Positions 1,578-42,396 of a stretch of 64,000 nt of DNA are shown piece after piece. The translations under genes were made by a program, and so were the position numbers. Under the pieces are notes generated by a model. That model worked only from the letters and a program-made list of their open reading frames with translations, was not told where the DNA came from and did no database searches. The DNA lies in the NCBI RefSeq assembly GCF_023704175.1, contig NZ_CP084530.1:244501-308500 (forward strand). The letters are read 5' to 3'. Source of the DNA: Paenibacillus sp. YPG26. Its GTDB lineage: Bacteria > Bacillota > Bacilli > Paenibacillales > Paenibacillaceae. Within the stretch, counting starts at the first letter, position 1; the number at the start of each line of letters is the position of its first letter.

Positions 1578-4500
1578 GTGTCATCCAACACGGTAGAAGA
1601 GCGGTTGTCTGAACATGAAGCGTTCGGATTTTGGGACAAGGTGTTGGCTGAATGGGCTGGGGAGCCCCCTATACAGCCAGACGGGATTGAAGGGGAAGTC
1701 CGGAAGACCAGGCTGGAGATGCGAATTCCCGCACAGGTTACGGAGAAGCTGGGCGTTTATGACCGCTTTCGCGACGATCTGCGAATGATTGTATACTTTG
1801 CTGTTTGGGCCGCAACGCTAAGAGCCTATTCCCGCTCGGAGAGCAGGTTCGCAGTGATGCTTCCGCCGCTGGATGATCGTGCTGGCGCCCGGAACGTGCC
1901 TGTACTGATCGGGAAGCCGGACAGAGACAGGAGCTTCAAAGCAGCGCTTGGTGAATGGCGCGAGACATTACGGGAAGCCTATCGGGCTTCGAAAGGATGG
2001 GATACGGGTCCGGGTGATCCGGCATTGCACAATAAGTGGAGAGAACTTGAACAGTTTGCTTATTCATATGAACCGATACATGGGAGGGAATTTGTAAGAT
2101 CGTTCGCGCAGACGAACGAAAGGAAAGTGTTATTACATATCGGGAAAAGCCCGGAAGGGGAAGCTGCGCTTGCCCTGCATTATGACGAGAGCTTGTATGG
2201 AACGAAGCTGATGCAGGCATTGGCGGATAGCTTCATCATCCTGCTGGAGCAAGCCGCTGAGCAGCCTGACTGCGACATGTCTGCACTGGAGCTGAGAACC
2301 GGCGAGGAGATCTCAAGACAGCGCGCATGGAATGATACGCAGGCGTCTTATGCCCGGGACATGACCATCCACGGTTTGTTTGAACGTACTGCGGAGAAGC
2401 TGCAGGACCGGATTGCCGTAGCAGCCGGAGAGGACAGGCTGACTTATCTGGAATTAAGCCAGCGGTCGGATGGCTGGGCCCGGCGGCTGCAGGAGGAAGG
2501 AATCGCTCCAGGTGACCGCGTTGCGGTCATGATGAGCAGATCTGTTGACTGGCCGGCAGCTTTCTTGGCTGTCCTCAAATCGGGTGCTGTCTATGTGCCG
2601 ATCGATCCAGCATATCCGGCAGAGCGGATCGCTTATATGCTGTCCGACAGCATGGCATCTGCAATAATTGTGTCCGACAGCAGCAAATGTAATGAACTCC
2701 AGCAATTTGAAGGCGCTATCATTGACATATCTGGAATTTCTAGATTGAGTGAAGACAACTTATCCGGACCGTTGCCCGTCACATCTGCGGACGATTTGGC
2801 CTATCTATTGTATACGTCTGGTTCAACGGGAATGCCTAAGGGTGTTATGGTTGAGCATCGAGGGGTCAGCAATTTGTTATGTTATTTCGAGAACAGTCTT
2901 GGCGTTAACGCCAATGACCATGTGCTGCAATTTGCCAGTACTTCCTTCGACGCATCCATATGGGAGATGGCGATGGCTCTGCTCACCGGAGGCGAGCTGC
3001 ATATTGCCACACCGGATATTGTGGGTGATCTTCGGCGGTTTGAGCTATGGACGCAGGAACAGGAGATTACGGTGGCTACGCTTCCGCCAACCTATGCGGT
3101 CCATCTGAATCCGGAGAGGATGCCATCCCTTCGGCTTCTCGTAACGGCAGGCTCCGAATCGGGAAAAGAGCTGCTGGATCTATGGCATGATCGGGTGACT
3201 TATGTGAACGCTTACGGACCGACCGAGACAACGGTCTGCGCCACTGCCTGGGACGGCAGTGCTCAGCTGCTGCCTTCCTCGGCGCTTGTGCCTATCGGCG
3301 GACCGCTGCCCAATATGCAAGTACATATCGTGAACGAGCAGCTGCAGCCGCTCCCGGCAGGGGCGGCAGGCGAACTCGTTGTGTCAGGCACCGGTGTAGC
3401 GCGTGGCTACTGGAACAAGCCGGAGATGACGGCCGACCGGTTCGTCCGTCTTCCTTCGGATGGTACAAGAGTATATCGGACGGGCGACTTGGCTCGTTGG
3501 ACACCGGACGGCCAGATTGTATTCTTGGGGCGGGTCGACCGGCAGGTCAAAATACGCGGATTCCGGATTGAAACGGAGGAAGTGCGGCACGCGCTTGTCT
3601 CGCAGGCAGGAATCAAAGAGGCCGTGGTGGCTGTGCGGCCTGATGCGCACGGGGAACCCGCGCTTGCTGCCTTCTATTCGATTCATCCGGATAGCCAGGT
3701 TGATGCCGAGCTGCTCAAGGAGCAGATAGGAAGCCGCTTGCCGGCTTTTATGATACCCGCTTATTGGTTGGAGGTCCCAAGCATCCCGCTTACGCCGAAC
3801 GGCAAGCCGGATCTCGCGGCACTTTACGCTTTACCGCTGCAGTCGGCCGGAGAAGAGTCGCCAGAAGACAGCACACCGCTGAGCGATACCGAAAGCCGGT
3901 TGGCCGCGATTTGGACTTCGCTGCTTGGCATTGAAGCGGTGGGACGAGATGACGACTTCTTCAGAATCGGCGGCCACTCTATGCGAGCCGCGAAGATGTC
4001 CGGTCTGATCTATGAGACTTTTCAGGTTAACTTGCCGCTGGAGCAAGCCTTCCGGTATGCCAGACTGTCGGAAATGGCGGCGCGCATCGATGAGCTTCGG
4101 TTCACGGAAAGTGTAGACGTGATCATGCCGGCTCCCGCGAGGACGGGCTACCGTCTGTCTCCCGCACAGACGAGGGTGTTCACCATCGAGAGCGTAAGGC
4201 CCGGCAGCACGCTGTACGTAATGCCATTTGCTTTCTGGCTGTCTCCCGCGCCAGAATTCGAGCAGCTGGAAGCCGCATTTGTCCGGCTAATTGAACGCCA
4301 CGAGCCGCTGCGAACATCGTTCGGCTGGGAAGGGTCCGAGCCGGTGCAGATCGTGCATCCGTCCGTGACATTCCGCCTGGAGAGGGTTCAGGTATCCCCG
4401 GAACAGCTGACAGAGCTGACCGGAAGATTCGAAGAATCCTTCGCGCTGGACAAGCCGCCGCTGCTTAGGGCTGCGCTGGCGGAATGCACAGATGGCCGCA

Positions 4501-5456: not shown

Positions 5457-5479
5457 TCTATTAAATGGAGGAATAGTGG

Positions 5480-6550: not shown

Positions 6551-6750
6551 GCGAAGGCACGGCCATTCTGCAGGCAATGCTGTTACCTTAAGCTAAGCCA
6601 TTTAACTCACTTATAAAAACACACAGGGATACGTAACGAGGCGAACGACTCCAATGCTGTAGAAGCAGTCACGGACGGCCGTTGCCTCAAGACTTCAATC
6701 GTATAGAGAAGTACTGGAACTACATTGCAGCCAATAGGGAGGAAATTGAA

Positions 6751-9700
6751 ATGGATGCGTTAGAAATTCGCAAGCTGTTATCAAGCGGAAAATGGGATAA
6801 AGAGAGGCAGTTCTGGTCCGAACTGCTTGAAGGAGACCGCGAGCTGACGCGCTTGCCCGAGGATCTCCGGCTCGGCGATCGGGAGCAGCCACAGACCGCG
6901 GAATATCGGACAACGTTCGGGGCTGAGCTGTCCGGCAGAATCCACGCTTTGTCAGGCGGATCGGACATCGCTGCCTTTCTGGTATTGCTAAGCGGCGTTC
7001 AGCTTGTGACCAGATTATACGCTTATGTGCAGGAGGTACTGCTTGTGACTCCCGTCTTCGATGGGCCGGCGCAAGAGGATGCTCAAGTTATCAATCAGCT
7101 GCTTCCATTCCCTTTTACCCTGGATCCGGAGCACTCTGTTCGTGAGAATCTGAACGCACTGAAGAACCGCTTGGCGGAAATTCTGGATCATCAGAACTAC
7201 CCGTTCGCCCAGCTCGCAGCCGATCGGGGCTGGAGCACTCTGGAGGAGGCTGATAGCTTCCCGATTCCCATCGCTGTTGGATGCGAGCGCTTACATAAGA
7301 GCGGGATACTGGAACAGGCGACAGCAGATGTCGTGTTCTGGTTCGCACAGCAGGAAGGGAACTGGACGTTGGAGGTCCGCTTCAACCCGCGGCGCTACTC
7401 AGACATGTTCGCACAACAGGTGGCTTCCCGGGTGCTGCTGGCCCTGAATGGTCTGCTCGGCAATCTGGATGCCCCACTCTCGTCAATCCGGCTGCTGGAT
7501 GAATCCGAGCGGGATGAAGTGATACGGGTGTTCAACGATACAGATGCCCCCTTCCCTAGTGACCGCACGCTTCATCGTTTGTTCATGGAGCAGGCATCTC
7601 AATCCCCGGATGCTGTCGCAGCGATGTATGGCGAGAGTACAATTACGTACCGTGAACTGGACGAGCGGTCGAGCCAACTGGCAAGGCTGTTGCAAAAAGC
7701 GGGCGTCGGCCCGGAGACCCGAGTTGCGCTGCTGTGCAGACGCTCATTCGATATGCTCGTGGGTGCGCTCGGAATTCTGAAAGCCGGCGGGGCTTACGTG
7801 CCAATTGAGACATCCTGGCCGAAACGCCGGGTGCAGACGGTACTGGAGCAGGTTCAAGCTGCCTGTATCGTGACCCAGCGTGATGTGTTCACTTCTTTGG
7901 CAGACCTTCCATGGATGATCTCGCCGCTCCGCCAAGTGGTGCTCCTTGATGATGAAGGGGATACACCGGGCATCTCCCATCCTGAGCGGGAGTCGGTTGT
8001 CCGGATGTTTGATGATCTGGCGGCGAAGGCCCATGACCGGGTGTCAGCAGGCGGCTTCATCAGCTCCTATACCGGGCTGTATTTAACTGAGACGGAAGTG
8101 GACGAATACCGGGATCGGGTTGTCGGATTAACAGCCCCGTTCGCTGGCGAAGGGAAGACGGCGCTGGAAATCGGCTGCGGCTCCGGTCTCATTATGTTCG
8201 AGCTGGCAGAGCGCTTTGCCGGATATACGGGTCTTGACCCGTCTTCGCAGACACAGGACAAGAACCTGAGTCAGCGGGACACACAAGGGTGGGATGCCGG
8301 ACGGCTTCAGCTGCTAACAGGCTTCGCTGATGAGATTTCAGGCATGGCAGACGAGTCTTATGATGTCGTGCTGCTTCCAAGCGCCATTCAGTTTTTCCCG
8401 GACTATATGTATCTTGAACACGTGCTTCGGGAAGCGGTACGGATCGTTCGTCCAGGCGGGGCCATCATTGTGGCGGACGTACCGGACGAGTCGGCGAAGG
8501 AGGAGTTCCGGGCTTCACTGGAAGGCTTCAAGCGCAGCCATGGCACTTATTACAATACCCGCGTCGGATTGGATCAGCATTTATATGTGCATGAGCAGTT
8601 TTTCGCCGGTTTTGCCGGGCGGTTATCCGGCTTGAAGGCAGAAATTCACAAGCGGACGGAAGGGTTCAAGAACGAGCTTCGCTTCAGGTATGACGTCGTG
8701 CTGACGAAGTCTGCTGTGTCTGATTCGAGTATCGCCACACCAGAGGGGTTCGTTCCTGCTGCTGATTTACAGCAAGAAGGCATTATCTACTATACCAAGC
8801 GTCATATAGAGCTGGAGGATGCAGCAGGTCTGCCCGAAGCGGCCGATCCATCGGGAACGGCGTATATCATCTTCACCTCCGGCTCGACAGGAACGCCAAA
8901 AGGCGTCATCGTGTCCCATCGTCCGGTTGTCAACACGATCGACTGGGTGAACAAATCCTTTGGCATAGGTGCTGAAGACAGGCTCTTCTTTATAACCTCG
9001 CTCTGCTTTGACTTGTCTGTGTACGATGTGTTCGGCACGCTTGCGGCAGGTGGAGCGATCGATATTGTACCTGAAGAGGATGTCCGCAGACCGGAGACGT
9101 GGCCTCAGCGAATGGCGGCCCGCGGCATCACGATATGGGACTCCGCTCCGGCGGCGCTTGTTCAGAGCCTTCCCTTCTTCGATAAATACGAAGGCCAGGC
9201 GGCTCCGGTACGCAGGTTCCTGCTAAGCGGGGACTGGATTCCGCTGACACTGCCCGAGCAGCTTCGGCGCTTGTTCCCGGGCAGCCGGGTAGCCGCGCTG
9301 GGCGGTGCGACCGAAGCCTGTATCTGGTCGAACTATTACGAGGTGGAAGAGATCGATCCGCAGTGGCAGAGCATTCCGTACGGCAAGCCGATTCGCAATG
9401 CCAAGTATTACATTCTGGACCGGGAGATGCAGCCTTGTCCGGTCGGGGCCCGCGGAGAACTATTCATTGGCGGGGCGTGTCTTGCGAGCGGTTACCATGA
9501 CGCGGGGCTGACAAGAGAGCGGTTCATAGCTGATCCGTTCGGGCAGGCAGAGGGTGCGCGTATGTATCGCACAGGCGATATGGCCAAATGGATGCCGGAC
9601 GGCAACATAGAGTTCCTTGGCCGTGTGGACCGTCAGGTGAAAATCCGCGGATTCCGGGTCGAGCTCGGGGAGGTTCAGGCGAAGCTGCTCCGGCATCCTG

Positions 9701-10203
9701 ACATTAGCCAGTGCGTCGTTCTTGACTGTCCGGACGGCTCCGGGCAGCGGGCGTTGTGCGCCTATTATGCGGCAGCCGAGGAGCTTCCGTATCGCGCGCT
9801 TCACGATTATCTGAGCCAGGACCTGCCGGGCTACATGATTCCATCTTATTTCGTCCGGCTGGACGCGATACCCGTAACGTCCAACGGCAAGGTGGACGCT
9901 GCCGCGCTGCCGAATCCACTGACAGTTGTCCATTCGGATGCGGAATATGAGCCTCCGGCGAATGAAGTAGAGGCTGAGCTTGTCGAGCTCTGGAAGGCAC
10001 TGCTGGAAGTGGAGACGGTGGGCGTGAACGATAACTTCTTTGAGCTTGGAGGCCATTCTCTGCTCGCGGTCAAGCTTGAAATCGAGATGGAGCAGCGGGG
10101 ACTTCTCATCTCACCTGAAGACTTCCTGAAGTGCTATACCATACGTGAGCTGAGCCAATATACAACAAAAGCGGCAGCTGCCACTGCCGAGACTGCAAGC
10201 TAG
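6751..10203 (+). CDS. NRPS: degenerate C lobe - A(Cys-like) interrupted by methyltransferase - T
   Basis: 1150 residues from the ATG at 6751, which has AGGGAGGA seven bases upstream; the frame also opens from a TTG at 6682 without a good RBS. Residues 1-240 resemble a C-domain C-terminal lobe without HHxxxDG. The A domain starts near 265 and reaches its second core motif (LKAGGAYVPIE, about 342). It is then interrupted by a SAM methyltransferase (ALEIGCGSGL near 471, DVVLLPSAIQFF, RPGGAIIVADVP) and resumes at FTSGSTGTPKG near 706. The pocket reads D-L-Y-D-L-S-L-I-W-K, one residue from the Cys code DLYNLSLIWK. The carrier serine is in GGHSL near 1102. Insertion at this point is known from TioN and KtzH, which methylate side chains of Cys and Ser, so S-methyl-Cys is the likely unit. 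The protein ends in T with no release domain. Confidence 0.9.
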   Translation: MDALEIRKLLSSGKWDKERQFWSELLEGDRELTRLPEDLRLGDREQPQTAEYRTTFGAELSGRIHALSGGSDIAAFLVLLSGVQLVTRLYAYVQEVLLVTPVFDGPAQEDAQVINQLLPFPFTLDPEHSVRENLNALKNRLAEILDHQNYPFAQLAADRGWSTLEEADSFPIPIAVGCERLHKSGILEQATADVVFWFAQQEGNWTLEVRFNPRRYSDMFAQQVASRVLLALNGLLGNLDAPLSSIRLLDESERDEVIRVFNDTDAPFPSDRTLHRLFMEQASQSPDAVAAMYGESTITYRELDERSSQLARLLQKAGVGPETRVALLCRRSFDMLVGALGILKAGGAYVPIETSWPKRRVQTVLEQVQAACIVTQRDVFTSLADLPWMISPLRQVVLLDDEGDTPGISHPERESVVRMFDDLAAKAHDRVSAGGFISSYTGLYLTETEVDEYRDRVVGLTAPFAGEGKTALEIGCGSGLIMFELAERFAGYTGLDPSSQTQDKNLSQRDTQGWDAGRLQLLTGFADEISGMADESYDVVLLPSAIQFFPDYMYLEHVLREAVRIVRPGGAIIVADVPDESAKEEFRASLEGFKRSHGTYYNTRVGLDQHLYVHEQFFAGFAGRLSGLKAEIHKRTEGFKNELRFRYDVVLTKSAVSDSSIATPEGFVPAADLQQEGIIYYTKRHIELEDAAGLPEAADPSGTAYIIFTSGSTGTPKGVIVSHRPVVNTIDWVNKSFGIGAEDRLFFITSLCFDLSVYDVFGTLAAGGAIDIVPEEDVRRPETWPQRMAARGITIWDSAPAALVQSLPFFDKYEGQAAPVRRFLLSGDWIPLTLPEQLRRLFPGSRVAALGGATEACIWSNYYEVEEIDPQWQSIPYGKPIRNAKYYILDREMQPCPVGARGELFIGGACLASGYHDAGLTRERFIADPFGQAEGARMYRTGDMAKWMPDGNIEFLGRVDRQVKIRGFRVELGEVQAKLLRHPDISQCVVLDCPDGSGQRALCAYYAAAEELPYRALHDYLSQDLPGYMIPSYFVRLDAIPVTSNGKVDAAALPNPLTVVHSDAEYEPPANEVEAELVELWKALLEVETVGVNDNFFELGGHSLLAVKLEIEMEQRGLLISPEDFLKCYTIRELSQYTTKAAAATAETAS

Positions 10204-10267
10204 TGCTGGTGTATGGTCTGGCGCCGGATCGGTGCATCTATGGAAATTGGGAAAGGTGGGGCCATTC

Positions 10268-12891: not shown

Positions 12892-12959
12892 GTTTAGCTT
12901 TTGCAGGATAGCATGAATGCCGATTGACGGCACTATACCCGCTTGGGAGGAGTTGTACG

Positions 12960-15900
12960 ATGAAGCCGTTCTGCAATTTGACGGAGGTGCTGGCCCATGG
13001 AGCCGGTACCGGGAAGAGCATAGTGTTCATTCAAAAAAAATCCGAAGCCCGTATGACCTACCGCGAGCTGTACGCCCGTAGTCTGCGTGCAGCATCCCGC
13101 TTGCGGGCCCAAGGCTGCCAGATTCAGGATGAGGTCGTCATTCGGGTGGAAGATCCGCGGACCTTCGTTATCGCATTTTGGGGCTGTGTAGTTGGTGGAA
13201 TGGTGCCTGTACCGCTGGCTGCGGGCGGCAGCGAGGAGCATCTTACCAAGCTTCGGCAGGTCTGGGGACGGTTGAACCGTCCTTGGCTGCTGTCGGAGCC
13301 TGACTTCGCCGAGGTTGAAGATGAGCCTTGGGCAGCTGGGCGCAGTCTGGCTCTGGAAGATGTCCTGTATACGGAAGAAGAGATCACGGATGCGGTGGCT
13401 GACGAGCTTTTGGCACAAGGACTGGCCGGCGGGCAGAATGACGAAGACAGGCTTCCTTACCGGCCTGCTTCGGGAGCCACTGCCTTTATTCAATTCTCGT
13501 CGGGCTCTACCGGCGACCCCAAGGGGGTCGTGCTGACCCATGCGAACCTGCTGTCAAATATGGCGGCGATTGTGAACTGCTCGGGAACAACCGAGCATGA
13601 TTCTTCTCTTAGCTGGATGCCCCTGACGCATGACATGGGGTTAATCGGCTTCCACCTGACTCCGATCTATGCAGGCATGGATCAGTATATTATGCGTCCA
13701 TCACAGTTCATGCTGGACCCGATGCTCTGGCTCTCCAAGGCCCATGAGCACCGGATTACGTCGCTCGCCTCGCCGAATTTCGGTTACAGGCATTTTCTTG
13801 CCTCTTATAAATCCAAGCGGGTGGAAGGCTGGGACTTAAGCTGTGTCCGGCTGATCTTCAACGGTGCGGAACCGATATCAGCGGAATGGGCCGAGATGTT
13901 CGTGTCAGAGATGGCGCCGCATGGTCTTTCTCCAGGGGCTATGTTCCCGGTGTATGGGATGGCCGAAGCGACACTGGCAGTTACTTTCCCGCCTGCCGGG
14001 GAACGGCTGACCTCTGTCCGCCTGCATCCGGAATCGCTCCGGATCGGCGGGGAAGTCCGCATGGCCGAGGAGGGAGATGAACGTTCGGTGTCGTTCGTGG
14101 ATGTCGGGAGTCCTGTTCAGGACTGCGAGGTTCGGATCACAGACGAATCGGACAAGCCGCTGCCTGACGGGCGGATCGGTCATATTCTCATTCGCGGACT
14201 GAATGTCACCGCAGGCTATTATAACGCTCCGGAAGCGACCGGGCGGGCAATAAGTCCCGAGGGCTGGCTGCGTACAGGCGATATCGGATATATGTCTGGC
14301 GGCAGGCTGGTTATTACCGGCCGTCACAAGGATATTATTTTTGTTCGGGGCCGCAATGTATATCCGCATGATCTTGAACAGCGGGCTGAAGCGGTCGAGG
14401 GTGTTGGTTATGGAAAAGCGGCCGCGTGCGGTGTTCCGCATCCGTCCAAGGGAGAAGAGGAGGTTATTCTGTTCGTGCAGCATCGCGGCAAGCTTGAGAA
14501 GTTCGCCGCGACGGCCGAACGGCTTCGCCGGCAATTGAACCGCGAGACGGGTCTTGATATCGGACGAGTCGTACCGGTGCGCCAGCTGCCTCGGACAACG
14601 AGCGGCAAAATCCAGCGTTATAAGCTGGCCGAACGGCTGATCGCCGGGGAATGGGATGAGGTGTTAAGTGAGCTGGAATTGCTGCGGTCCGAAGCGGAGG
14701 CAGCTGCGGCTGCGACTGCGGCGCAATCTGGTTCGTCAGCACCGTCCGCTTCAATCGCAGACAGCGAACACCCTGATATGCATCGCCTTGCGGCGTTATG
14801 GCGCGAGACTCTGGGCATGAGCTTTGTGGGAGCGGACGATCATTTTCAAGAGCTTGGGGGGAATTCATTAAAAGCTGCACAAGCGCTGGCGGGCATTCGC
14901 AGGGAATGGGGCGTCGAGCTGTCGTTCCGCGACCTGTACGAATGCCCCACACCGCGGCTGCTACTGGCGCGAATTCAGCGTGAAGTTCACCAGGCGTCTC
15001 CGGGGCCGGACAGCTTGCCGTCCGCAGCACTTCGTGCCGATGGCCGCTACCCGGTGACGGTTGCGCAGCGGCGAATGGCGCTGGCAGAGCAGGCGGAGGA
15101 TATTGGCTGCGCTTATCATATTCCGGTTGCGCTGACGGCTGAAGGGCCGCTTGTGCCGGAACACCTTAGAGAGGCACTTCAAGCGTTAATTGACAGGCAT
15201 GAGATGCTGCGTGCTTCTTATCATTGGGATCAAGGAGAGCTTGTACAGCAGATACACCCTCCTGGAGAGATTGACGCTGACTGGAAGGTGTATGCGTGCG
15301 AAGCGGCGGATTTTCCTGATCCAGGCACACCGGAGCACATCGGGCTTGGTGATTCGCTGGCTCCATTCGATCTGTCCCGTCCACCTATGCTCCGGGCTAG
15401 ATTGTGGACGGACGGGGCGAGCCGCCATCTGCTGCTGCTGAACGTACACCATATTGCGGCTGACGGTATCGGCATGAATGTGCTGATGCAGGAGTTCGCC
15501 GCTCTTCTTGGGAGAGAGTCACTACCGGCTCCGGGCCAATCGTACATTGACTATGCGGTATGGGAGCACAGTCAGGCTCCGTTCTGGAAGCCTGAATCCG
15601 AGTCGTTCTGGAAGGAACAGCTGGGTACGGCATTCCCTGCGCTGCAGTGGCCGGATATGGCGTCCAGGCCTGCCCGGCGCACTTACAAAGGCGGCACAGT
15701 AAGATTGGAAGTACCCGCGGATACGGTACAGGGATGGGAGCGCCAGGCACGGCAGGACTCGGCAACGATGGCTTCGCTGCTGCTGAGCTTGCATGCACTT
15801 ACGGTAAGCAGGTATGCCCGCCAGTCAGAGTTGTCGATTGGCTTGCTTGTAGCAGGACGAACCCTCCCGGGTACGCTTGGGATGGTCGGCATGTTCAACA

Positions 15901-25431: not shown

Positions 25432-25481
25432 CTGGAGGCACTGAAGAGAGTAGAATATAGCTAGAACGAGGAGGGTTCCGA

Positions 25482-28400
25482 TTGCAACAAAAAGCTTGGT
25501 GGGAAGAGGATGAAATGCCGTTCGAGCTTGAGGATGCGGCTGTGGAGTCAGCTGGGACTGCGGAGCCTTCAGGCGTCATGGAGGAGACCTCCGGCCGGGA
25601 TATCGCCATTATCGGTATGGCGGCCCATCTGCCGAATGCGGAGGATGTAAGGCAATTTTGGGAGCAGCTGATGTCGTCCTGCGACGCGGTCGGCCCGTTC
25701 CCCGAATCGCGTCGTGGCGATGTGGAGTCGATGCTCGCCGGCACGAAGCTGCCTAAGGGCAAGGTTTCGTACTACGATGGCGCTTATTTGGAGGGGATTG
25801 ACCGGTTCGATCACCGCTTTTTCCGACTCTCGCCCAAAGAGGCGGCTCTGATGAGCCCGAATCAGCGTCTGTGGCTGGAGACGGCATGGAGCGCCATCGA
25901 GGATGCGGGTTACGGCGGGCGCAAGCTCTCCGGCAGCCGAACCGGCGTGTATGTCGGCTATAACGGAGATGCGTTCCACGATTACAAGCGGTTGATCGCG
26001 GAGAGGGACCCGGCTGCGCTGTCAACGGCTATTCCGGGCAACCTGTCGTCAATCGTTGCGGGTAGACTGTCCTATCTGCTCGACCTCAAAGGGCCGGCTA
26101 TGACGGTAGATACCGCATGCTCGTCTTCACTGCTTGCGCTTCACCTTGCAGTGCAGGCGCTGCGCAGCGGCGAGTGCGAGATGGCGCTGGTCGGCGGCGT
26201 CAAAACGTACCTGCTTCCCGTCGATATGGGCATTCGGATCGGCATTGAATCCTCGGACTCCCGCGCACGGACATTCGATAACTCATCGGACGGCACTGGC
26301 GGCGGGGAAGGTGCGGGAGCGGTGCTGCTCAAGCCGCTCGGCCGGGCGCTGCGCGACCGGGATGCGATCTATGCGGTGATCAAAGGCAGCGCGGTGAACC
26401 AGGACGGTGCATCTGTCGGCATTACGGCGCCGAACGTGCTGGCGCAGGAAGAAGTCATTATGCAGGCTTGGCGGGATGCCGCAGTTGAGCCGGGGACGAT
26501 CGGTTATATCGAAGCTCACGGCACCGGGACCCGCCTGGGCGACCCGATTGAGATTGCCGGCATAACGCAGGCTTTCCGCCATTACACGGATCGGAGACAG
26601 TTCTGCGCGGTTGGCTCCATCAAGACGAACTTTGGCCACCTGGATACAGCGGCGGGTATTGTGGGTCTGATCAAGACAGCGTTGACACTTCATCACGGCA
26701 CAATTCCTCCGATGCTGCATTTCCGCGAGCCGAATCAGGCGATTCCGTTCGTTGACTCTCCGGTGTACGTCAACGACCTGCCGCGGGAATGGCACCAGGA
26801 GAACGGCAATCCGCGCCGGGCGGGGATCAGCTCGTTCGGTATGAGCGGGACAAATGTGCACGCGGTGCTGGAGGAGGCACCGGGAGCTGAAGCTCTGTAT
26901 GAAGCGGAGCCCGAAGGTACGGACAGAGACGCGCTGCGGGTGCTGGCGCTGTCCGCGAAGAGCGGGGCGGCTCTGCAGCGTCTGGTAGAGCGGTATGCTC
27001 TGTTCCTGGAGGAGGAGGGACCCGGTCGTATTCGGCTGCGCGATATTTGCTATACGGCGAATACGGGCAGAGGACATTACGACTATCGCGCCGCGCTCAC
27101 GGCGGATTCCGTAGGCGAACTGGCAGGCAAGCTCCGCTCGCTCGCTGAGGTTCTAGCCGCAGCACAAGCATCTGGCGAAAGCGGGTACGCTTGCCGAAGC
27201 GTCTCTTCTGACGTTTGGACCGGGCGGGCTGACGAGCCGGGAGCGGCGGGATATACGGAAGATGAGCTTAAGGGGCTGTCACCCGGGGATCTGTGCCGGG
27301 CTTACGTGTCTGGCGGAAGCTGGGATTGGACGCCGCTGTATCAGGAATCAGACTGCCGAAAAGTCCATCTTCCCACGTATCCGTTCGAGCGGACCCGCTG
27401 CTGGGTGGCAGAGCCGGCAGGGGATGAGGACTACCGCTTGCCGGACGGATGGGCGGACGCCTCTGTATCCGCCTATTCTGCCCAAACCGCAGCGGAGCAG
27501 CCGGAGCAGGACTTCATACGCCTGACCGGCCGTTCCTCGAGCGACGGCGGTTACTCGGATACCGAGCGCATAGTCGCTGAAGTCTGGGGACGCGTGCTGG
27601 GCTTCGCGGAGATCGGCGTACAAGAGCATTACTACGAGCTGGGCGGCGACTCGATTCTGGCGCTGCAGATTGCCGAGCAGCTCTCCCGGCGGCTAAGCAG
27701 GGAAGTCAATGTTGCCGGGCTGCTTGCATATCCGACAATCGAGACGCTGTCCGCTCATCTGGATGAGAGCCTTCTGGCGGCTGAGGCCGTGCTGGATACG
27801 GCTTCAGTCGGCACTGATGCTAATAGTGCGGTGGCCGCATCCCACGAGGGGAGCGGACAGGCGGGAGCGGACCAGGCTGATTGGATTGAGCACCCATTAT
27901 CGCGGTCCCAGCTCCGTATCTATCTGGCGAGCCAGCAAGCGGAAGCCGATCTTCATTTCAATATGCCAATGGCTTATGCCATAGACGGTCCGCTGGACGT
28001 GGAGCGGCTTCGGGCTGCTTTTGTCCGGCTATCCGAGAGGCATGAGAGCCTGCGTACCACATTCGGATGGTCGGACGCCGGTGAACCGGTGCAGCTGATA
28101 CATCCGCTGGCGGTTGCGGAGGTGGAGCAGCAACAGGCGGTATCCGAATCCGATTGGGCCGGCAGTGCAGCGGCCTTTGTCCGGCCGTTCGACGTGTCGC
28201 AGCTTCCGTTATTCCGGGTTGGAGTCGTCTCGGCGTCCGGGGATCGGCATCTGCTGCTGCTGGATACGCATCATCTTATTGCGGACGGAGCTTCTCTCGC
28301 TCTGCTGCTTCAGGAGCTGACTGCTTTGTATGGCGGTCTTGCCCTTCCTTCGAGCACGGCGGATTACCGCGAGTATGTAAGCTGGCAGCGGGAACAAGCA

Positions 28401-31400
28401 GAATCTCCCGCGCTGCTGAAGCAGCGGGACTACTGGCTGGGGGAAGTGCTGACAGGTACGCTTCCACAGCTTCGCCTGCCGCTCGACTATTCCCGTCCGA
28501 AGACGAGAACCATGCAGGGAAGGATGTATCGTTTCACAGTGGGGGCGGAGACGGTGGAGTCGCTTCGGGATTTGGCCAAAAGACAGCATCAATCGCTGCA
28601 CACCGTGCTGTTCTCACTCTATACCCTGCTGCTGAGCCGGTATACCGGTCAGGATGACCTGATCGTCGGCTCGCTTGTGAACGGAAGGGAGCAGGCGGAA
28701 TTCCGGCGTACGATTGGATTGTTCATCAATTTCCTGCCGGTGCGCATCCGCGCGCGGGCCGGGATGACATTTGCCGAACTATTGGAAGAAGTCGGCCGGA
28801 GGACGACCGAAGCCTATACCCATGGCGGATTCCCGTACGATGAGATGGCAGCGGCTCTGAACGCGGTCGCGAACCGGTCGCGCAACCCGCTGTACGACAC
28901 GATGCTCGTGTATCACAATCACGCTGCGGGCAGTGAGCGTTTCGAAGCGGGCGGCCTGACATTTGCCGAATATCCGCTTGAGCGGGACTCCTCCGCACTG
29001 GATGTCAAAATGGATCTGTTCCCCGGAGCCGATGGTACCCTGCGCGGCGTGATTGAGTACGACTCGGCGCTGTTCCAGGAGGCGACCATTGCCCGGATGG
29101 CGGAGCATTATTGCCGCCTTGCGGCGCTTGCGGATTCAGGTACTGGTACGGCGGTTGACCACTTCGAGCTGTTCGAGCCCGAGGAGGCGGATGAGCTGGA
29201 ACGCAGACGCCGATTGAACGACGGGGCAGCTTCCGCTCCAAAGCGTCATCTGGCAGTTCGCGTCGCGTCAACGTTCACGGCAGAACCGGTTGCCAAGCCG
29301 CTGCGGGATTGGCTCGCCTCGTTTGGCTTTGCGCCAGATGTGAGTTTTGCGCCGTATAATCAGGTCTTCCAGCAGTTGATGACCGATGCCGATCCGGAGC
29401 AGTGGCCAGCCGGCGGCGCGAGCGTTGTGCTTGTCCGTCCAGAAGACTGGCTTGCGGCAGGTATAGAGGCGGAGGCTGGGCTGGTACGCCTGGAGGATGA
29501 CTTCGAGCGGCTGTTCACCCTGCTTGGCAGCCGGTCCGGTCAAGGGCCGCAGCTCGTAGCGGTCATGCCTTTTGACCGGAACGGCCCGCTTCGCGGTATC
29601 TCACCGGAGGCAGCCGAGGCCTGGCACAGCCGGCTGCGCACGCTTGCCGCGGCGGCGCCGACCGTGCACCTGCTGGATGTAGAAGATACAGCTGTACGCT
29701 ACCGGGTGCGGGAGATTGAAGATCCGGTGGCGTTCGAAGTGGGGAGGATTCCGTATACGGAGCCGTATTTTGCGGCCGTGGGAACGGAGATTGCCCGGGC
29801 ATTGATCGGGTGGCAAGGCCATCCATTCAAGGTTATTGTCGTTGATGCCGACCACACGCTGTGGCGCGGGGTAGTCGGGGAAGACGGCGTAGCGGGGCTT
29901 GTGGTATCCCCGCCATTCGCCGCATTCCAGCAGCTGCTGCTGCGGAAGCGAAGCGAAGGGCATTTGCTGGCGCTGTGCAGCAAGAACAATGAGGCTGATC
30001 TGTGGGAGGTGTTCGAGCAGCATCCGGATATGGTGCTTCGCAAGGAGCATTTCTCTGCATGGCGGGTCAACTGGCAGTCTAAACCCGTGAACATCCGCGA
30101 GCTGGCGGAGGAGCTGAACCTGGGACTAGACAGCTTCATGTTCATCGATGACAATGCGGCCGAGTGCTTGGCAACGATGTCCGTATGCCCGGAGGTGCTG
30201 ACGCTTAAGCTTCCACAAGAACACGAGATCCCGGCGTTCCTGGAGCATGTGTGGGCTTGGGACCGGCTGCGCGTAACCGAGGAAGACCGGATGCGTGCAA
30301 CTGGCTACGATGCGGAGCGTAAGCGGCAATCGGCGGCTAACGCAGGCGAGACGCTGGAGAACTACCTGCAGAGTCTGGAGCTGAAAGTCGGCATGCGTCC
30401 ACTTGCGCTGGAAGAGACGGAGCGGGCGGCGCAGCTGACGGTGCGGACGAACCAGTTCAACCTGAACGGCATCCGGCGGACGGAAGCGGATATTCGTGGC
30501 TTCCTGCAAGCGGAAGGCTCGCATGTATGGATTGTTGAGGCGGCTGACCGTTATGGCGAGTACGGCCGGATCGGCCTCGTGGCTGCGGAGGTGCAGGGGG
30601 AAGCGCTTGTGCTCAGTCAGTTCCTGCTAAGCTGCCGCGTGCTGGGCCGGGGGGTTGAGCAGGCGGTATCGGCAGGACTGAAGCGGATCGCACTGGAGAA
30701 CGGCTGCACCGAGCTTCGCGCTGCCTTCCGGCGAACCGCCAAGAACAAGCCGTTCGAACGCTTCTTAACAGAAGCAGGCTGGAATCCGATCGGAATCCGG
30801 GCAACTGGCGGAGAAGGGATTGAAGCTGCGGCTTCAGGAGACGGAATTGCGGCTTCTTGCCATATCGTACTGTCCAGTGTGCCTGATGTCCCGGCGCATA
30901 TTGACTTCCTTGAAGGTGTACGGCTTGGCTCAGATGAGGCTTATAGTGAAACGGCGGCTGCGAACGGAGGACCTGCGCCGGGAGCGGCGGTGGCCACGCT
31001 GGAGCACTCGGCTGCGGCTGCCGTTACGGCTACGGAAGCTGCAATGTCCACCGTCGCAGGTACCGCTGTTAGTCTCCCAAGTAACACTGCGGATAGCGAC
31101 AGCCCGTTCAGCGAACAGCCATACGATTGGGTAGTGCCGTATGAGAATGAGGCGCTGCTTCTGCATCAGTCGTACGTGCTGCCGCTGCGCTACGCCGATG
31201 CTTCGGCTATAGTGTCGATGCCGAGCGGAGATAGGGAAGGCTCAGATGCGGGTGGCGTCACGAAGCTTCCATACGAGCCTCCGGCCAACGAGACGGAAGC
31301 CGCGGTTGCCGAGCTGTGGGAACTGCTGCTCAGCGGAGGGCCGTACGGCCGCAGCGACCATTTCTTCGATTGCGGAGGCAACTCGCTGCAGGCTGCATCG

Positions 31401-34400
31401 CTCGTATCGCATTTTGTGCGGACATTCGGTATTCGGGTCTCCTTGGTCGACCTGTTCGAGCATGCGCAGTTGAAGCAGATGGCGAAGCTGGTGGCTGGAC
31501 CGCGTACGCAGGCTAGTCCTGAAGAGGCCGCTATGATTAAGGCGGCACCTCAAGCCGAGTTGTACGGGGTATCCTCGGCCCAGCGGCGTATGTATTTCTT
31601 GCAGCAATTTGATCCGGCAAGCACGGCGTATAACATCCCGGCGGTGCTGCGGCTTCATGGAGCCCTTGACCGGAACCGGCTGCGCCTGGCGTTCCGGCAG
31701 CTTGCGGAGCGGCACGAAGCGCTGCGGACCTGCTTTGTGCTGCAGGACGGCGAGCCGTGCCAACGGATTAACATGGAGGCGGTTGTTCATCTTGAGGAAC
31801 AAGCGGCCTCTGGTGATGAGCAGCTGCAGAGAGCGATTCGCGGCTTCGTTCGGCCCTTTGATCTTGAACGTGGGCCGTTGTTCCGCGCAGGGCTGATCAT
31901 AACGCCGGACGGTGAGCAGACACTTGTGTTCGACATTCATCACATTGTTGCGGATGGCGTGTCTGTGAATGTGCTGCTGGATGACTTCCTGGCACTGTAT
32001 GAGGGAGTGAAGCTGCCTCCGCTGAAACTGCAATATAAGGATTATGCGGTATGGCAGCGGGCTGAGCAGGCGTCCGGCCGTTATGAGGAGCCGCTCCGCG
32101 GCTGGCTGCGGCGGTTCGAAGGCGCGGTTCCGAAGCTGGAACTGCCGGTCGATCGTACAAGACCCGCTGTCAAAAGCCAGGAAGGAGCCCAGCTTGTCAT
32201 CAAGCTGGGCAGGGAACAAGCCGACGGGATCACAAGGCTTGCCCAGCAGGCTGGGGCAACACCGTTCATGGTGCTGCTTGCGGCATATGCGGCCTGGCTG
32301 ATGAGGCTGTCCCGGCAGACCGATGTCGTGATCGGGACGCCGGTTGCAGGCCGCATGCTTCCCGAGACGGAGCGGATGGTGGGTGTGTTCGTCAATCCAC
32401 TGCCGATGCGGTTATCGGCAGAGCCTGAGCATACGTTCGTACAGCTGCTCGCATCTGTGAAGGAAGAGGTGCTGCAGGCGCTTGATCGGCAGGATGCACC
32501 GTTCGAGGAGCTTGTGGATCGACTGGGACTAGCCCGGGATACGAGCCGCAGCCCGCTATTTGACGCGATGTTCTCGATGCTGAACATGGCTCACGGAGGA
32601 TTGTCGTCGGCTAATCTAAGCGCCACTCCTGTTTCCTTCGATTTTGGCGTGACCCAATTTGACATCGGCTTGTCGGCACTGGAGGAAGCGGATGGGCTGA
32701 CATTGACGGTGCAGTATGCAGCGGCCATCTATCGGCCGGATACGATGGAGCGCTGGATAGATGCGTTCCTTGCGATTGTGGACAGCATCCTTCGCGATTC
32801 GGGTGTGAAGCTGGCGGACATCGACCTGATGTCCGAGGCGGAGCGCCAGGTCGTGACGGAGCAGTTCAACGCGACGGAGGCGGCGTTCCCGGCTGAGCTG
32901 ACGCTGCCGGACATGTTCCGCCAGCAGGCGGAGCGAACGCCGGAGAGGATCGCGGCGGTGTTCGGGGACGGCGAGTCGCTGACCTACCGCGAGCTGGACG
33001 CTCGGGCGAGCCGGATTGCGCGGACGCTGCTGGACAGCGGACTCGCGCCGGAGGAGCCCGTGGGCCTGATGGCCGAGCGTTCATCGGCCATGCTCGCCGG
33101 GATGCTCGGCATTCTGAAGGCAGGCGGCGCGTATGTGCCGCTGCCACCAGCGTTCCCGGCGGAGCGGCTGCGCTACATGGCGGACGACTGCGGCCTTCGC
33201 ATCGTCTGCACGCAGCGGCAGTGGCTGTCCGCGGCGGAGCAAGCGGCACCGGAGGCACGGTTGCTGGATCTGGACGATGCGGGTTCGTCCGCCAAGAATA
33301 TCGGCGCAGCTGCCGATATTCCCGCAGGCTTGGCGAAGCCGGAGGGACTAGCCTATATCCTGTACACGTCCGGTTCAACAGGACGTCCAAAGGGCGTTAT
33401 GATCCGCCATCGGTCGGTGATCAACCGGCTGAACTGGATGCAGAAGGCGTATCCGCTCGGGAAGGAGGACGTCATCCTGCAAAAGACCCCATACAGCTTC
33501 GACGTATCCGTATGGGAGCTGTTCTGGTGGGCGCTGGCAGGAGCCAGCGCGGCGTTCCTGGAGCCGGATGCGGAGAAGGATCCGGGAGCGATAGCCGAAG
33601 CGATCGCGAAGCATAAGGTAACGACGATGCACTTTGTGCCGTCGATGCTGGCAGCGTTCCTGGAAGCCGCGCAGCAGGAGCCGCAGGAGCTGCTTCGGGA
33701 GCGTCTCGGAACACTGAAGCACGTGTTCGCGAGCGGGGAGGCACTGCACCGGTCGCATGTTGACCGCTTCTACGCGCTGCTTCGTCCGTTGGGTCTTACT
33801 GATGTGAAGCTTATCAACCTGTATGGCCCGACTGAGGCAACGGTAGACGTCACCGTCCACGAATGCGAAGCGGAGAGCGAGCTGGACTTTGTCCCGATTG
33901 GCCGCCCGATTGACAACACATCGCTGTATGTCATCAGTGATGGCGGACAACCGTTGCCGATTGGCGTGCCGGGCGAGCTCTGCATCGCGGGTGTGCAGTT
34001 GGCGGCGGGATATGTGAACTGTCCGGATCTGACGGCGGAGAAATTCGTGCCGCACCCTTATAAGCCGGGTGAAGTGATGTACCGGACGGGTGACTTGGCA
34101 AGATGGATGGCGGACGGCCAGCTTCAATACCTGGGCCGGATCGATGATCAGGTGAAAATTCGGGGTTACCGGATTGAGCTTGGAGAGATCGAACGAACAC
34201 TGCTGCTGCACGATGCGGTATCCGAAGCGGTCGCAGCGGTGCGGGAGGATGGCCGAGGCGGGCAGCGCCTGATCGGCTACATCGTAGCGGACCGGGATTG
34301 TCCGGCGGTTGAACTGCGGAAGCACTGTGGAGACAGGCTGCCAACGTATATGATCCCGGAGGCATTCGTGCAGCTTGAAGCCATGCCGCTGACAGCCAGT

Positions 34401-36161
34401 GGCAAAGCGGACCGCAAGTCGCTCCCAGAGCCGGAGAGCGAGCTGTCAACCGGAACGGCATATGCCGCGCCGACAACGGAGACGGAAGTGAAGCTGGCTG
34501 ATCTGTGGGCCGAGCTGCTCGGCTGTGACAAGGTAGGCACCAATGACAACTTCTTCGAGCTCGGCGGTCATTCTTTGAAGGCGGCTGCGCTAACCGCGGC
34601 GATCCAGCAGCACTTCGCTGTTCGTCTGCCGCTGAAGGATATGTTCGTGTACCCGACCATCCGCGAGCTGGCTGCCCATATTCAGTCAGGTAGTCTGGAG
34701 GCTGCCACCGCGCCAATTCCGCGAGCTGGATCGAAGCCATATTATCCGGCAATGCCGGCACAGATCCAAATGCTGATGGATGAGGCCCGTACGCCTGGCT
34801 CACTGGTCTACCATATCCCGACAGTACTTGCACTTACGGGCAGACTGGATGCGGACAAGCTGAGAGCTTCGCTTGATAAGCTGATCGAACGCCATGAGGC
34901 GCTTCGCCTCACATTCGTACAGGTGGAGGGAACAATCGCGCAGGTTGTCCGTGACCGCATTGAAGCACCTTTTGAAGTCATTGCGCCTTCGGACTTCTTC
35001 GGTAGCGATACGACCGGGAACGAGGTGGATGCTGTGCTGCGTTGGCTGAAGCCGTTCAATACGGCAGAAGGCCCGCTGTTCCGGGCATGCCTTGTTCCTC
35101 GGGGGGAGGAGCGTTATCTGCTCCTGTTCGATATTCACCATGCTGTCTCTGACGGAACATCGGTTGCACTGCTGATGTCGGAGCTGATCGATCTCTATGA
35201 AGACCGCACGCTGCCGCCTGTGCAGGCTCAGATTACTGATTACAGTGAGTGGCTTGCTCATTCACTGACGGCTCAGGAACGGGAGCGCCAGCGTGCTTAT
35301 TGGCTGCAGCAGTTCGAAGAAGCCGTTCCGGTACTTGCTTGGCCGACAAGGAGAGGACGCGAAGAGCTGGCTGATCCGTCTGCGAGAACGGAAGCCGGGC
35401 GGTATCGCTTCAGCATAACCGGAGAGCGTCTGGGTGCGGTGGAACGCTTGGCGCAAGACTCTGGTGCGACCCTATCCATGGTGTTGTTCGCCGCTTACCA
35501 AGCACTGCTTGGACATTGGAATGGAACAGCAGATGTCGTTACTGGCGTGCCAACGGCAGGGCGTTCGCACCCGGATTTGGCAAGAACATCCGGTCTGCTG
35601 CTTCAGACGTTCGCTGTTCGGAACCGGCCGCAAGTAGCGCTTGCTTTTGCCGATTGGTTGAAGGAAGTGAAGGAAAGCATGCTTCAGGCATTCGATCATG
35701 CGGGGCTGACGACGGAAGAACTGATCGGGCTGCTGGATGAACGGGGACAGATTACTTGGGACCCGACCCGTCATCCGCTGTTCGATACAATGTTCGTGAT
35801 GCAGAATATGGACACTCCGCCGGCACAGAGCGGCGATATGTTATGGGAGACGCTGGATTATCGCTTCACCGGGGCGAAGCTGGATCTTGTGCTGGAAGCC
35901 GTGGAACGCGGCGGGCGGCTTGAGCTTGTCTTCGAATATCGCAGCCGATTGTTCCCGGAGGAGACGATCATCCGTATGGCCGAGAACTTCCTGCAGCTTC
36001 TGGAGCATGCAGCATCAGAACCTCAGATGACGCTAGAATCACTGGCGGGGATGCTTCCGAGCGTTCTTCCAGAAGGTACGAAGCCTACGGATTCGTCAGC
36101 GGCTGTACATGATGGAGGGCAAGAAGAGCTGGATTTATTTGCGGAGGATTTTTCGTTCTAA
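25482..36161 (+). CDS. Hybrid PKS/NRPS: KS-ACP-C-FkbH-T-C-A(Ser)-T-C
   Basis: 3559 residues from the TTG at 25482 (GGAGG seven bases upstream; ATG 25515 is an alternative). KS: Cys213 in DTACSSS, His346 in HGTGT, and KTNFGH. A shrunken linker ending LPTYPFERTRCW shows the AT is absent. ACP GGDSI near 724; C with HHLIADG near 930. An FkbH-like region follows (about 1280-1790): HAD motif VDADHTLWRG near 1454, SKNNEADL, FIDDN, and a GNAT-like end with RTNQFNLNG. Then T (GGNSL, Ser1967), C (HHIVADG near 2153), A (serine code DVWHFSLVDK), T (Ser3030) and C (HHAVSDG near 3219). FkbH proteins load 1,3-bisphosphoglycerate onto carriers as glyceryl with loss of phosphate, so this domain appears to replace an A domain. 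Last gene of the operon. Confidence 0.92.
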   Translation: MQQKAWWEEDEMPFELEDAAVESAGTAEPSGVMEETSGRDIAIIGMAAHLPNAEDVRQFWEQLMSSCDAVGPFPESRRGDVESMLAGTKLPKGKVSYYDGAYLEGIDRFDHRFFRLSPKEAALMSPNQRLWLETAWSAIEDAGYGGRKLSGSRTGVYVGYNGDAFHDYKRLIAERDPAALSTAIPGNLSSIVAGRLSYLLDLKGPAMTVDTACSSSLLALHLAVQALRSGECEMALVGGVKTYLLPVDMGIRIGIESSDSRARTFDNSSDGTGGGEGAGAVLLKPLGRALRDRDAIYAVIKGSAVNQDGASVGITAPNVLAQEEVIMQAWRDAAVEPGTIGYIEAHGTGTRLGDPIEIAGITQAFRHYTDRRQFCAVGSIKTNFGHLDTAAGIVGLIKTALTLHHGTIPPMLHFREPNQAIPFVDSPVYVNDLPREWHQENGNPRRAGISSFGMSGTNVHAVLEEAPGAEALYEAEPEGTDRDALRVLALSAKSGAALQRLVERYALFLEEEGPGRIRLRDICYTANTGRGHYDYRAALTADSVGELAGKLRSLAEVLAAAQASGESGYACRSVSSDVWTGRADEPGAAGYTEDELKGLSPGDLCRAYVSGGSWDWTPLYQESDCRKVHLPTYPFERTRCWVAEPAGDEDYRLPDGWADASVSAYSAQTAAEQPEQDFIRLTGRSSSDGGYSDTERIVAEVWGRVLGFAEIGVQEHYYELGGDSILALQIAEQLSRRLSREVNVAGLLAYPTIETLSAHLDESLLAAEAVLDTASVGTDANSAVAASHEGSGQAGADQADWIEHPLSRSQLRIYLASQQAEADLHFNMPMAYAIDGPLDVERLRAAFVRLSERHESLRTTFGWSDAGEPVQLIHPLAVAEVEQQQAVSESDWAGSAAAFVRPFDVSQLPLFRVGVVSASGDRHLLLLDTHHLIADGASLALLLQELTALYGGLALPSSTADYREYVSWQREQAESPALLKQRDYWLGEVLTGTLPQLRLPLDYSRPKTRTMQGRMYRFTVGAETVESLRDLAKRQHQSLHTVLFSLYTLLLSRYTGQDDLIVGSLVNGREQAEFRRTIGLFINFLPVRIRARAGMTFAELLEEVGRRTTEAYTHGGFPYDEMAAALNAVANRSRNPLYDTMLVYHNHAAGSERFEAGGLTFAEYPLERDSSALDVKMDLFPGADGTLRGVIEYDSALFQEATIARMAEHYCRLAALADSGTGTAVDHFELFEPEEADELERRRRLNDGAASAPKRHLAVRVASTFTAEPVAKPLRDWLASFGFAPDVSFAPYNQVFQQLMTDADPEQWPAGGASVVLVRPEDWLAAGIEAEAGLVRLEDDFERLFTLLGSRSGQGPQLVAVMPFDRNGPLRGISPEAAEAWHSRLRTLAAAAPTVHLLDVEDTAVRYRVREIEDPVAFEVGRIPYTEPYFAAVGTEIARALIGWQGHPFKVIVVDADHTLWRGVVGEDGVAGLVVSPPFAAFQQLLLRKRSEGHLLALCSKNNEADLWEVFEQHPDMVLRKEHFSAWRVNWQSKPVNIRELAEELNLGLDSFMFIDDNAAECLATMSVCPEVLTLKLPQEHEIPAFLEHVWAWDRLRVTEEDRMRATGYDAERKRQSAANAGETLENYLQSLELKVGMRPLALEETERAAQLTVRTNQFNLNGIRRTEADIRGFLQAEGSHVWIVEAADRYGEYGRIGLVAAEVQGEALVLSQFLLSCRVLGRGVEQAVSAGLKRIALENGCTELRAAFRRTAKNKPFERFLTEAGWNPIGIRATGGEGIEAAASGDGIAASCHIVLSSVPDVPAHIDFLEGVRLGSDEAYSETAAANGGPAPGAAVATLEHSAAAAVTATEAAMSTVAGTAVSLPSNTADSDSPFSEQPYDWVVPYENEALLLHQSYVLPLRYADASAIVSMPSGDREGSDAGGVTKLPYEPPANETEAAVAELWELLLSGGPYGRSDHFFDCGGNSLQAASLVSHFVRTFGIRVSLVDLFEHAQLKQMAKLVAGPRTQASPEEAAMIKAAPQAELYGVSSAQRRMYFLQQFDPASTAYNIPAVLRLHGALDRNRLRLAFRQLAERHEALRTCFVLQDGEPCQRINMEAVVHLEEQAASGDEQLQRAIRGFVRPFDLERGPLFRAGLIITPDGEQTLVFDIHHIVADGVSVNVLLDDFLALYEGVKLPPLKLQYKDYAVWQRAEQASGRYEEPLRGWLRRFEGAVPKLELPVDRTRPAVKSQEGAQLVIKLGREQADGITRLAQQAGATPFMVLLAAYAAWLMRLSRQTDVVIGTPVAGRMLPETERMVGVFVNPLPMRLSAEPEHTFVQLLASVKEEVLQALDRQDAPFEELVDRLGLARDTSRSPLFDAMFSMLNMAHGGLSSANLSATPVSFDFGVTQFDIGLSALEEADGLTLTVQYAAAIYRPDTMERWIDAFLAIVDSILRDSGVKLADIDLMSEAERQVVTEQFNATEAAFPAELTLPDMFRQQAERTPERIAAVFGDGESLTYRELDARASRIARTLLDSGLAPEEPVGLMAERSSAMLAGMLGILKAGGAYVPLPPAFPAERLRYMADDCGLRIVCTQRQWLSAAEQAAPEARLLDLDDAGSSAKNIGAAADIPAGLAKPEGLAYILYTSGSTGRPKGVMIRHRSVINRLNWMQKAYPLGKEDVILQKTPYSFDVSVWELFWWALAGASAAFLEPDAEKDPGAIAEAIAKHKVTTMHFVPSMLAAFLEAAQQEPQELLRERLGTLKHVFASGEALHRSHVDRFYALLRPLGLTDVKLINLYGPTEATVDVTVHECEAESELDFVPIGRPIDNTSLYVISDGGQPLPIGVPGELCIAGVQLAAGYVNCPDLTAEKFVPHPYKPGEVMYRTGDLARWMADGQLQYLGRIDDQVKIRGYRIELGEIERTLLLHDAVSEAVAAVREDGRGGQRLIGYIVADRDCPAVELRKHCGDRLPTYMIPEAFVQLEAMPLTASGKADRKSLPEPESELSTGTAYAAPTTETEVKLADLWAELLGCDKVGTNDNFFELGGHSLKAAALTAAIQQHFAVRLPLKDMFVYPTIRELAAHIQSGSLEAATAPIPRAGSKPYYPAMPAQIQMLMDEARTPGSLVYHIPTVLALTGRLDADKLRASLDKLIERHEALRLTFVQVEGTIAQVVRDRIEAPFEVIAPSDFFGSDTTGNEVDAVLRWLKPFNTAEGPLFRACLVPRGEERYLLLFDIHHAVSDGTSVALLMSELIDLYEDRTLPPVQAQITDYSEWLAHSLTAQERERQRAYWLQQFEEAVPVLAWPTRRGREELADPSARTEAGRYRFSITGERLGAVERLAQDSGATLSMVLFAAYQALLGHWNGTADVVTGVPTAGRSHPDLARTSGLLLQTFAVRNRPQVALAFADWLKEVKESMLQAFDHAGLTTEELIGLLDERGQITWDPTRHPLFDTMFVMQNMDTPPAQSGDMLWETLDYRFTGAKLDLVLEAVERGGRLELVFEYRSRLFPEETIIRMAENFLQLLEHAASEPQMTLESLAGMLPSVLPEGTKPTDSSAAVHDGGQEELDLFAEDFSF
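32817..34574 (+). repeat. Serine A-T module, copy 3 of 3
   Basis: Nearly identical over 1758 bases to the module at 19701-21458, and over the shared parts to 16335-18239, although it lies in a different gene more than 11 kb away. This suggests recent duplication or gene conversion. The serine pocket is unchanged. Confidence 0.9.
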
Positions 36162-42365: not shown

Positions 42366-42396
42366 ATAACTAAGATGAAGAGAGGGTATGATGATC

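Follow-up and report, generated by a model that had tools for sequence, protein, structure and literature searches.

The window, by which we mean the whole 64,000-nucleotide stretch analysed (contig NZ_CP084530.1 of Paenibacillus sp. YPG26, positions 244,501 to 308,500), carries nine tightly packed plus-strand genes between positions 1578 and 36161, with frames open throughout (Table 1). Judged from their sequences, these genes probably encode a working hybrid of nonribosomal peptide synthetase (NRPS) and trans-acyltransferase (trans-AT) polyketide synthase (PKS) for a lipopeptide, with the product plan acyl-Ser-Ser-(C2)-glycerate-Ser-Phe-Cys(Me). The domains were read by Pfam and NCBIfam scans together with domain-by-domain comparison, and the series AL-ACP-C-Ser-C-Ser, KS-ACP-C-FkbH-T-C-Ser-C, Phe-C and Cys(MT), which had been given in the initial annotation, was recovered at the positions in Table 1. 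That annotation had passed over three half-C fragments, a BtrH-like protein, a thioesterase (TE), an ABC exporter and a double CPBP protein. The true start of P0004 is probably the ATG at 6751, which matches a 1150-aa database protein, and that of P0002 is probably at 12960.

Table 1. Genes of the operon and one feature outside it, in window coordinates, with predicted substrates (C, condensation domain; A, adenylation domain; T and ACP, carrier domains; KS, ketosynthase; MT, methyltransferase; FAAL, fatty-acyl-AMP ligase)
Feature	Position	Strand	Content
P0003	1578..5456	+	half-C (1578-2297), A Phe (2379-3827), T (3888-4091), C (4149-5402)
P0005	5480..6550	+	stand-alone, predicted BtrH/CcbD fold, zero cysteines
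P0004	6682..10203	+	half-C (about 6742-7536), interrupted A with Cys-like code (7588-7959 and 8821-9918), MT between a2 and a3 (8002-8751), T (9970-10161)
P0008	10232..12178	+	ABC transporter of cyclic-peptide-export type; TIGR01194 382.4 bits, cut-off 286.2
P0009	12175..12891	+	free-standing (type II-like) TE, GHSMG
P0002	12924..22244	+	FAAL (12960-14663), ACP (14784-14978), C (15024-16343), A Ser (16437-18101), T (18147-18350), C (18417-19736), A Ser (19803-21320), T (21366-21569), half-C (21639-22193)
P0007	22241..23806	+	discrete malonyl-type acyltransferase; FabD model 284.1 bits, cut-off 260.9; GHSLG
P0006	23803..25431	+	double CPBP/Rce1-like membrane protein
P0001	25482..36161	+	KS (25596-27149), ACP (27552-27776), C (27900-29216), FkbH (29277-30881), T (31293-31487), C (31557-32852), A Ser (32919-34436), T (34482-34691), C (34752-36041)
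Partial tmRNA 3′ end copy	316..398	+	outside the assembly line

The KS of P0001 was found to have no AT in cis and the discrete AT P0007 is encoded in the same operon, as expected of a trans-AT PKS module, which bears out the earlier trans-AT call. The FkbH domain scored 296.9 bits against a cut-off of 146.65 and occupies the place of an A domain between C and T; both DxDxT and CSKN, which we take to be the HAD-type motifs of FkbH, are present in it (DADHTLW and CSKN). Intact motifs were likewise read for the KS (triad), for the MT (EIGCGSG), at six HHxxxDG sites and for the carrier proteins as far as the search pattern covers them. No ketoreductase (KR) was called in the operon, no RNA element was found at the gathering threshold, and a simple motif search revealed no dual epimerization/condensation domain among the six C domains, which is weak evidence. 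Judged by its recurrence, such a layout is beyond chance, because the same layout was obtained in eight other genomes and a close variant in two further clusters.

The three Ser A domains of the window all gave the code DVWHFSLVD, the Phe A domain of P0003 gave DAWTVAAVC and the MT-interrupted A domain of P0004 gave DLYDLSLIW. The names Ser, Phe and Cys-like are those that we assign to these codes from known code tables, and DLYDLSLIW presumably lies one position off the Cys code. Over eight clusters the codes agreed in 20 of 20 Ser domains, in all seven Phe domains (V or I at one position) and in all eight Cys-like domains (one L to M); g245 was left out of this count, three repeated partial rows of G097 were dropped, and A domains past contig or stretch ends were uncounted. 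Domain calls and predicted building blocks (Ser, Phe, a Cys-like residue and glycerate) agree with the initial annotation. It is somewhat unlikely, though to be reckoned with, that the product ends in something other than S-methyl-Cys, either because the MT acts on the amide nitrogen or because the last residue is not Cys; the single deviating position speaks for this, but the P0004 code is otherwise Cys-like and conserved. The MT of P0004 is inserted between a2 and a3, as an interrupted A domain of the TioN/MarQ type requires. For thalassospiramide, the a2-a3 MTs of TtcC and TtmB are given as N-methylating, whereas TioN (thiocoraline) and MarQ (maremycin), whose A domains are broken by an MT at the same place, S-methylate (PMC11355689; this and the papers below are cited from partial texts). 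P0004 differs from TioN and MarQ in being the last module of a lipopeptide line and in being preceded by a half-C, and its S-methylation is a prediction. By this analogy, the last residue is most likely S-methyl-Cys.

The cluster type is scattered across Paenibacillus and Cohnella, and the eight other genomes that repeat the window layout all belong to Paenibacillaceae, with three of their clusters cut by contig ends. In P. methanolicus (G160) the same order was found, the best aligned pieces showing 72-85% protein identity, a lesser P0007 piece 65% and P0005 75%; no match to the ABC protein was obtained within its 60-kb region. The seven further carriers are C. mopanensis (end of P0001 cut by the contig), C. 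cholangitidis, P. plantiphilus, C. panacarvi, Paenibacillus sp. PR3, and Cohnella sp. CFH 77786 and C. silvisoli (both cut within P0002). Counting the window, the CPBP protein was present in all seven clusters not cut before its gene, the TE in all nine (in g028 by direct reading) and a P0005-type protein, in one or two copies, in eight of nine. The MT segment was matched at E up to 1e-20 in 26 of 295 sampled genomes of the family, and window-type clusters (MT segment identity 56% or more) were found in nine of the 295, the own genome included. At E up to 1e-45 it was matched in five of 392 sampled genomes of the order, all of them Paenibacillaceae, and in one of 398 of the phylum, namely the own genome; both sets are samples, and that of the order missed relatives known from the family sample. 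A scan of genome contigs gave 80 loci, the Fontibacillus locus included, and close relatives were not among the matches listed.

More distant relatives were informative on the order of the proteins. The gene series of F. panacisegetis (G253) is FAAL-ACP-C-Ser-T-C-Ser-T, AT, CPBP, KS-ACP-C-FkbH-T-C, half-C-Phe-T-C and half-C-A-MT-A-T-BtrH; G152, which loses its start at a contig end, has the same order. A second P. methanolicus cluster runs FAAL-Ser-Ser-half-C, then KS-ACP-C-FkbH-T-C-Phe-T-C, then half-C-A-T-C-A-MT-A-T with a tail that gave weak matches to C39-peptidase, DUF4872 and BtrH models; here the MT module shares one protein with the preceding module (X). Identity of the F. panacisegetis and second P. 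methanolicus clusters to the large proteins of the window is about 36-44%. The gene order in these three clusters therefore supports the order P0002, P0001, P0003, P0004, and with it the order assumed in the initial annotation, since the relatives' genes run FAAL-Ser-Ser, KS-glycerate, Phe, Cys(MT). On this comparison the predicted shared core is acyl-Ser-Ser-C2-glycerate-Phe-Cys(MT), to which the second P. methanolicus cluster adds the residue X; Ser following glycerate is confined to clusters of the window's type.

The starts of P0003 and P0004 and the end of P0002 match only the second lobe of a C domain and have no HHxxxDG. In hhalign, the two N-terminal half-C regions gave probabilities of 98.0 and 99.0 and the C-terminal one 28.6 with E 0.0006. 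A half-C was found at the starts of P0003 and P0004 in all nine clusters (in g057 the P0003 start only in part) and at the end of P0002 in all seven complete clusters. The joined P. methanolicus protein shows none where C meets A internally, and none was among the matches listed for the end of the P0002-like protein of F. panacisegetis, though the pairwise alignment continues over that part. Next to an A domain at a junction between proteins, a half-C most likely takes the place of the C lobe that is lacking there, and we infer from its position that it may serve there as a platform or docking element.

The FkbH module has precedents in known lines. FAAL-ACP-C-FkbH-T is known in vioprolide and corramycin (PMC8949500, PMC10099666), and C-FkbH-PCP stands inside the cystomanamide line (PMC9581180). 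The myxobacterial vioprolide and corramycin lines resemble the window in the FAAL start and in a glycerate-loading C-FkbH-T within an NRPS; however, their FkbH is module 2, right after FAAL-ACP, whereas in the window Ser-Ser and the KS extension come first (PMC8949500, PMC10099666). The cystomanamide lipopeptides resemble it in the mid-line position of C-FkbH-PCP, but their line, as given in the available text, reads Asn-Asn-Phe-glycerate-Tyr with E domains and a cis TE, and without Ser-Ser or Cys(MT) (PMC9581180). An active C domain before FkbH-T should form an ester because glycerate has no amine, and ester formation by such a C domain has been described for vioprolide (PMC8949500). By analogy, the pre-FkbH C domain of the window is predicted to make an ester.

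The C domains preceding FkbH were compared in two trees, from both of which C domains covering less than 85% of the model were dropped. In the first, built from the best 120 of 1092 FkbH matches, 93 of 112 pre-FkbH C domains fell into one clade together with 5 of 157 others; two of these five (P0059 and P0060) stand before a truncated-looking FkbH with the N-terminal region only. In the larger tree (proteins identical over residues 200-800 dropped; g093, g245 and g097c24 not included), the clade took in 101 of the 121 C domains preceding FkbH and 14 of the 200 remaining ones with support 1.0, and 100 label shuffles gave at most 9 against 87. This clade also includes nine C domains directly after FAAL-ACP. 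A search of myxobacterial genomes matched 8 of 96, and five regions were read, two of them (L151 and L152) with the FAAL-ACP-C-FkbH-T layout; FkbH had no match in the myxobacterial genomes of loci L062, L094 and L104. The clade was rejected as proof of an ester-forming C type, for it holds C domains after FAAL-ACP and leaves out those of the two myxobacterial FAAL-ACP-C-FkbH-T proteins. A separate observation concerned L139-L140 (G160 C3), which encodes a 6716-aa NRPS with two consecutive FkbH modules and a terminal BtrH domain with YYYPC.

Adjacent beta-ketoacyl and glyceryl units are the makings of a tetronate. Since the two units would stand side by side here, the beta-ketoacyl glyceryl thioester could cyclise to an acyl-tetronate and leave at the FkbH module, with the later modules serving another chain. 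This we consider very unlikely, as P0001 continues after FkbH-T with a C-A-T-C whose motifs are intact, the Phe and Cys(MT) modules accompany the FkbH protein in the clusters read far enough, and the domain calls of the operon include no separate KAS-III-like protein for tetronate formation.

For the stand-alone protein P0005, a structure model from 24 sequences (mean predicted local distance difference test score 90.0) matched CcbD, AziU3 and CtaG well above unrelated rows, which points to the BtrH/CcbD fold; AziU3 (azinomycin) and BtrH are fold relatives grouped with CcbD and CtaG. Catalysis by CcbD (lincosamide) is through Cys-His-Glu (PMC12945683), and CtaG (closthioamide), a solved relative of P0005, likewise carries the key Cys, whereas neither P0005 nor its P. 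methanolicus relative contains any cysteine, and only His124 is invariant across the 24 family members. Among these, at most eight share a Cys in any one column; 3 of 24 have one at position 22, a few residues past the expected nucleophile site (about residues 16-18, a position taken only from where the structural alignments begin and end), and the N-terminal stretches of P0005 relatives examined had no Cys at that site. Relatives of P0005 were present in 141 of 295 sampled family genomes, the own included (E up to 0.001). The absence of this Cys argues against acyl transfer of the ordinary kind. In clusters related to this one, the protein with the last T domain continues into a BtrH-type domain whose Cys, His and Asp are conserved, and this position suggests that P0005 may act at the end of the assembly line. 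Compared as profiles, the P0005 relatives and the fused domains failed to align (hhalign probability 0.7), so that kinship between the two rests on the P0005 fold and on weak PF14399 matches (six of the 24 members at E 0.001; in addition P0209 exactly at the cut-off and P0198 far below).

The host genome is closed (3.97 Mb), and all seven places of the condensation domain PF00668 lie inside the cluster, no other NRPS being found. PF01648 gave two genome places; one falls in a frame of 278 aa, a candidate for the activating enzyme of the Sfp type. Counted from the window start, the tmRNA gene spans about -1225 to -864, and the partial copy of its 3′ end comprises 61 bp (316-376) that are 95% identical to part of that end and a further 14-bp match (385-398). 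This copy probably marks a former insertion event at the ssrA site; a counterpart of the tmRNA end on the right-hand side was not found. The near relative G238 has no cluster at this site, and there only about 6.2 kb separate the flanking genes, compared with about 38.3 kb in the window. The GC content is 0.589 in the cluster, 0.499 in the upstream 12 kb, 0.439 in the first 1.5 kb of the window and 0.50 downstream. Taken together, the tmRNA end copy, the empty site of G238 and the GC step therefore point to an insertion site beside ssrA, and the ssrA locus is a probable insertion hot spot. This setting would suit a decaying or silent acquisition without product, which is very improbable indeed: the frames are open, the searched motifs are intact and an Sfp-sized gene is in the genome. 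The raised GC proves little by itself, because the P. methanolicus copy also exceeds its flanks (0.614 against 0.534 and 0.556). Two side observations were made in the surroundings. An ORF resembling, by eye, a zeta-toxin-type kinase lies between two tmRNA-end copies (window 316-398; L116 10775-11136), and positions 41073-42819 hold an ArsB-type arsenical pump and a low-molecular-weight phosphatase-like protein, which are ordinary arsenic resistance genes.

Domains, motifs, specificity codes, conservation and the relatives' gene order were observed directly, and the chemical steps deduced from them, every one an inference, would be as follows. The FAAL would load a fatty acid onto the ACP, and the two modules of P0002 would add Ser-Ser. 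The KS of P0001, with malonyl from P0007, would add a C2 unit whose beta-ketone would be retained, because no KR was called. FkbH would load glycerate on T, and the preceding C domain would pass the ketoacyl chain to the glycerate hydroxyl to give the ester. Later modules would extend the chain by Ser, then by Phe (P0003) and finally by a methylated Cys-like residue (P0004). Release from the last T would be assisted by the BtrH-fold protein or by the free TE, followed by export through the ABC transporter. For the linear acid of this plan the calculated mass is 673.2265 Da plus the acyl residue, giving [M+H]+ 884.43 with C14:0, 898.45 with C15:0 and 912.46 with C16:0, and 18.01 less for a lactone; the expected residue masses are 117.025, 147.068, 87.032, 88.016 and 42.011 Da, and F. 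panacisegetis would be expected to make an analogue short of one Ser.

Several results weigh against this reading. The ligase of P0002 had its best match in FAAL models at 529.6 bits, below the curated cut-off of 600, and no cis TE was found in the assembly line. The ABC gene was present in six of nine clusters and thus missing from three, the AT gene in five of seven and thus missing from two, and g245 had no P0005 relative between its two NRPS genes. P0005 was rejected as a canonical cysteine acyltransferase, having no Cys. An MT between a2 and a3 can N-methylate, as in TtcC and TtmB of thalassospiramide (PMC11355689). The two myxobacterial C domains of L151 and L152 lie outside the clade, apart from the pre-FkbH C domain of the window. 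Lastly, a literature search, with most subscription journals outside its reach, returned no described product of such make-up; the same outcome fits the initial description of the product as unrecognised.

It is also conceivable, though unlikely, that acyl-Ser-Ser is a removable leader of the prodrug kind, hydrolysed off after export to leave a shorter ketide-glycerate-Ser-Phe-Cys(Me). FAAL-Ser-Ser is present in every cluster complete enough to judge, and a conserved membrane protein of a protease-like family, P0006, is encoded between the two halves of the line. However, this double CPBP protein has one EExxxR motif, the second copy being altered to KExxFR, and no beta-lactamase-like leader peptidase was called in the operon. 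A role of P0006 in self-protection or processing is possible.

Returning to the full-length lipopeptide plan, we would propose, tentatively and at less than even confidence, a Paenibacillaceae family of lipo-depsipeptides with the core acyl-Ser-Ser-C2-glycerate-(Ser)-Phe-(X)-Cys(Me), in which a Cys-free BtrH-fold protein may act on the last carrier without a cysteine, in release or ring closure, and the split C lobes may form a new junction platform. Order and building blocks are kept over wide divergence, which makes this a testable family of natural products, and a single knockout would allow a clean before/after comparison because no second NRPS was found in the host. The clusters also offer natural test material for the function of a Cys-less BtrH-fold protein and for the pairing of C and A domains on separate proteins. 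Related clusters in working order would provide a building plan that chemists can test.
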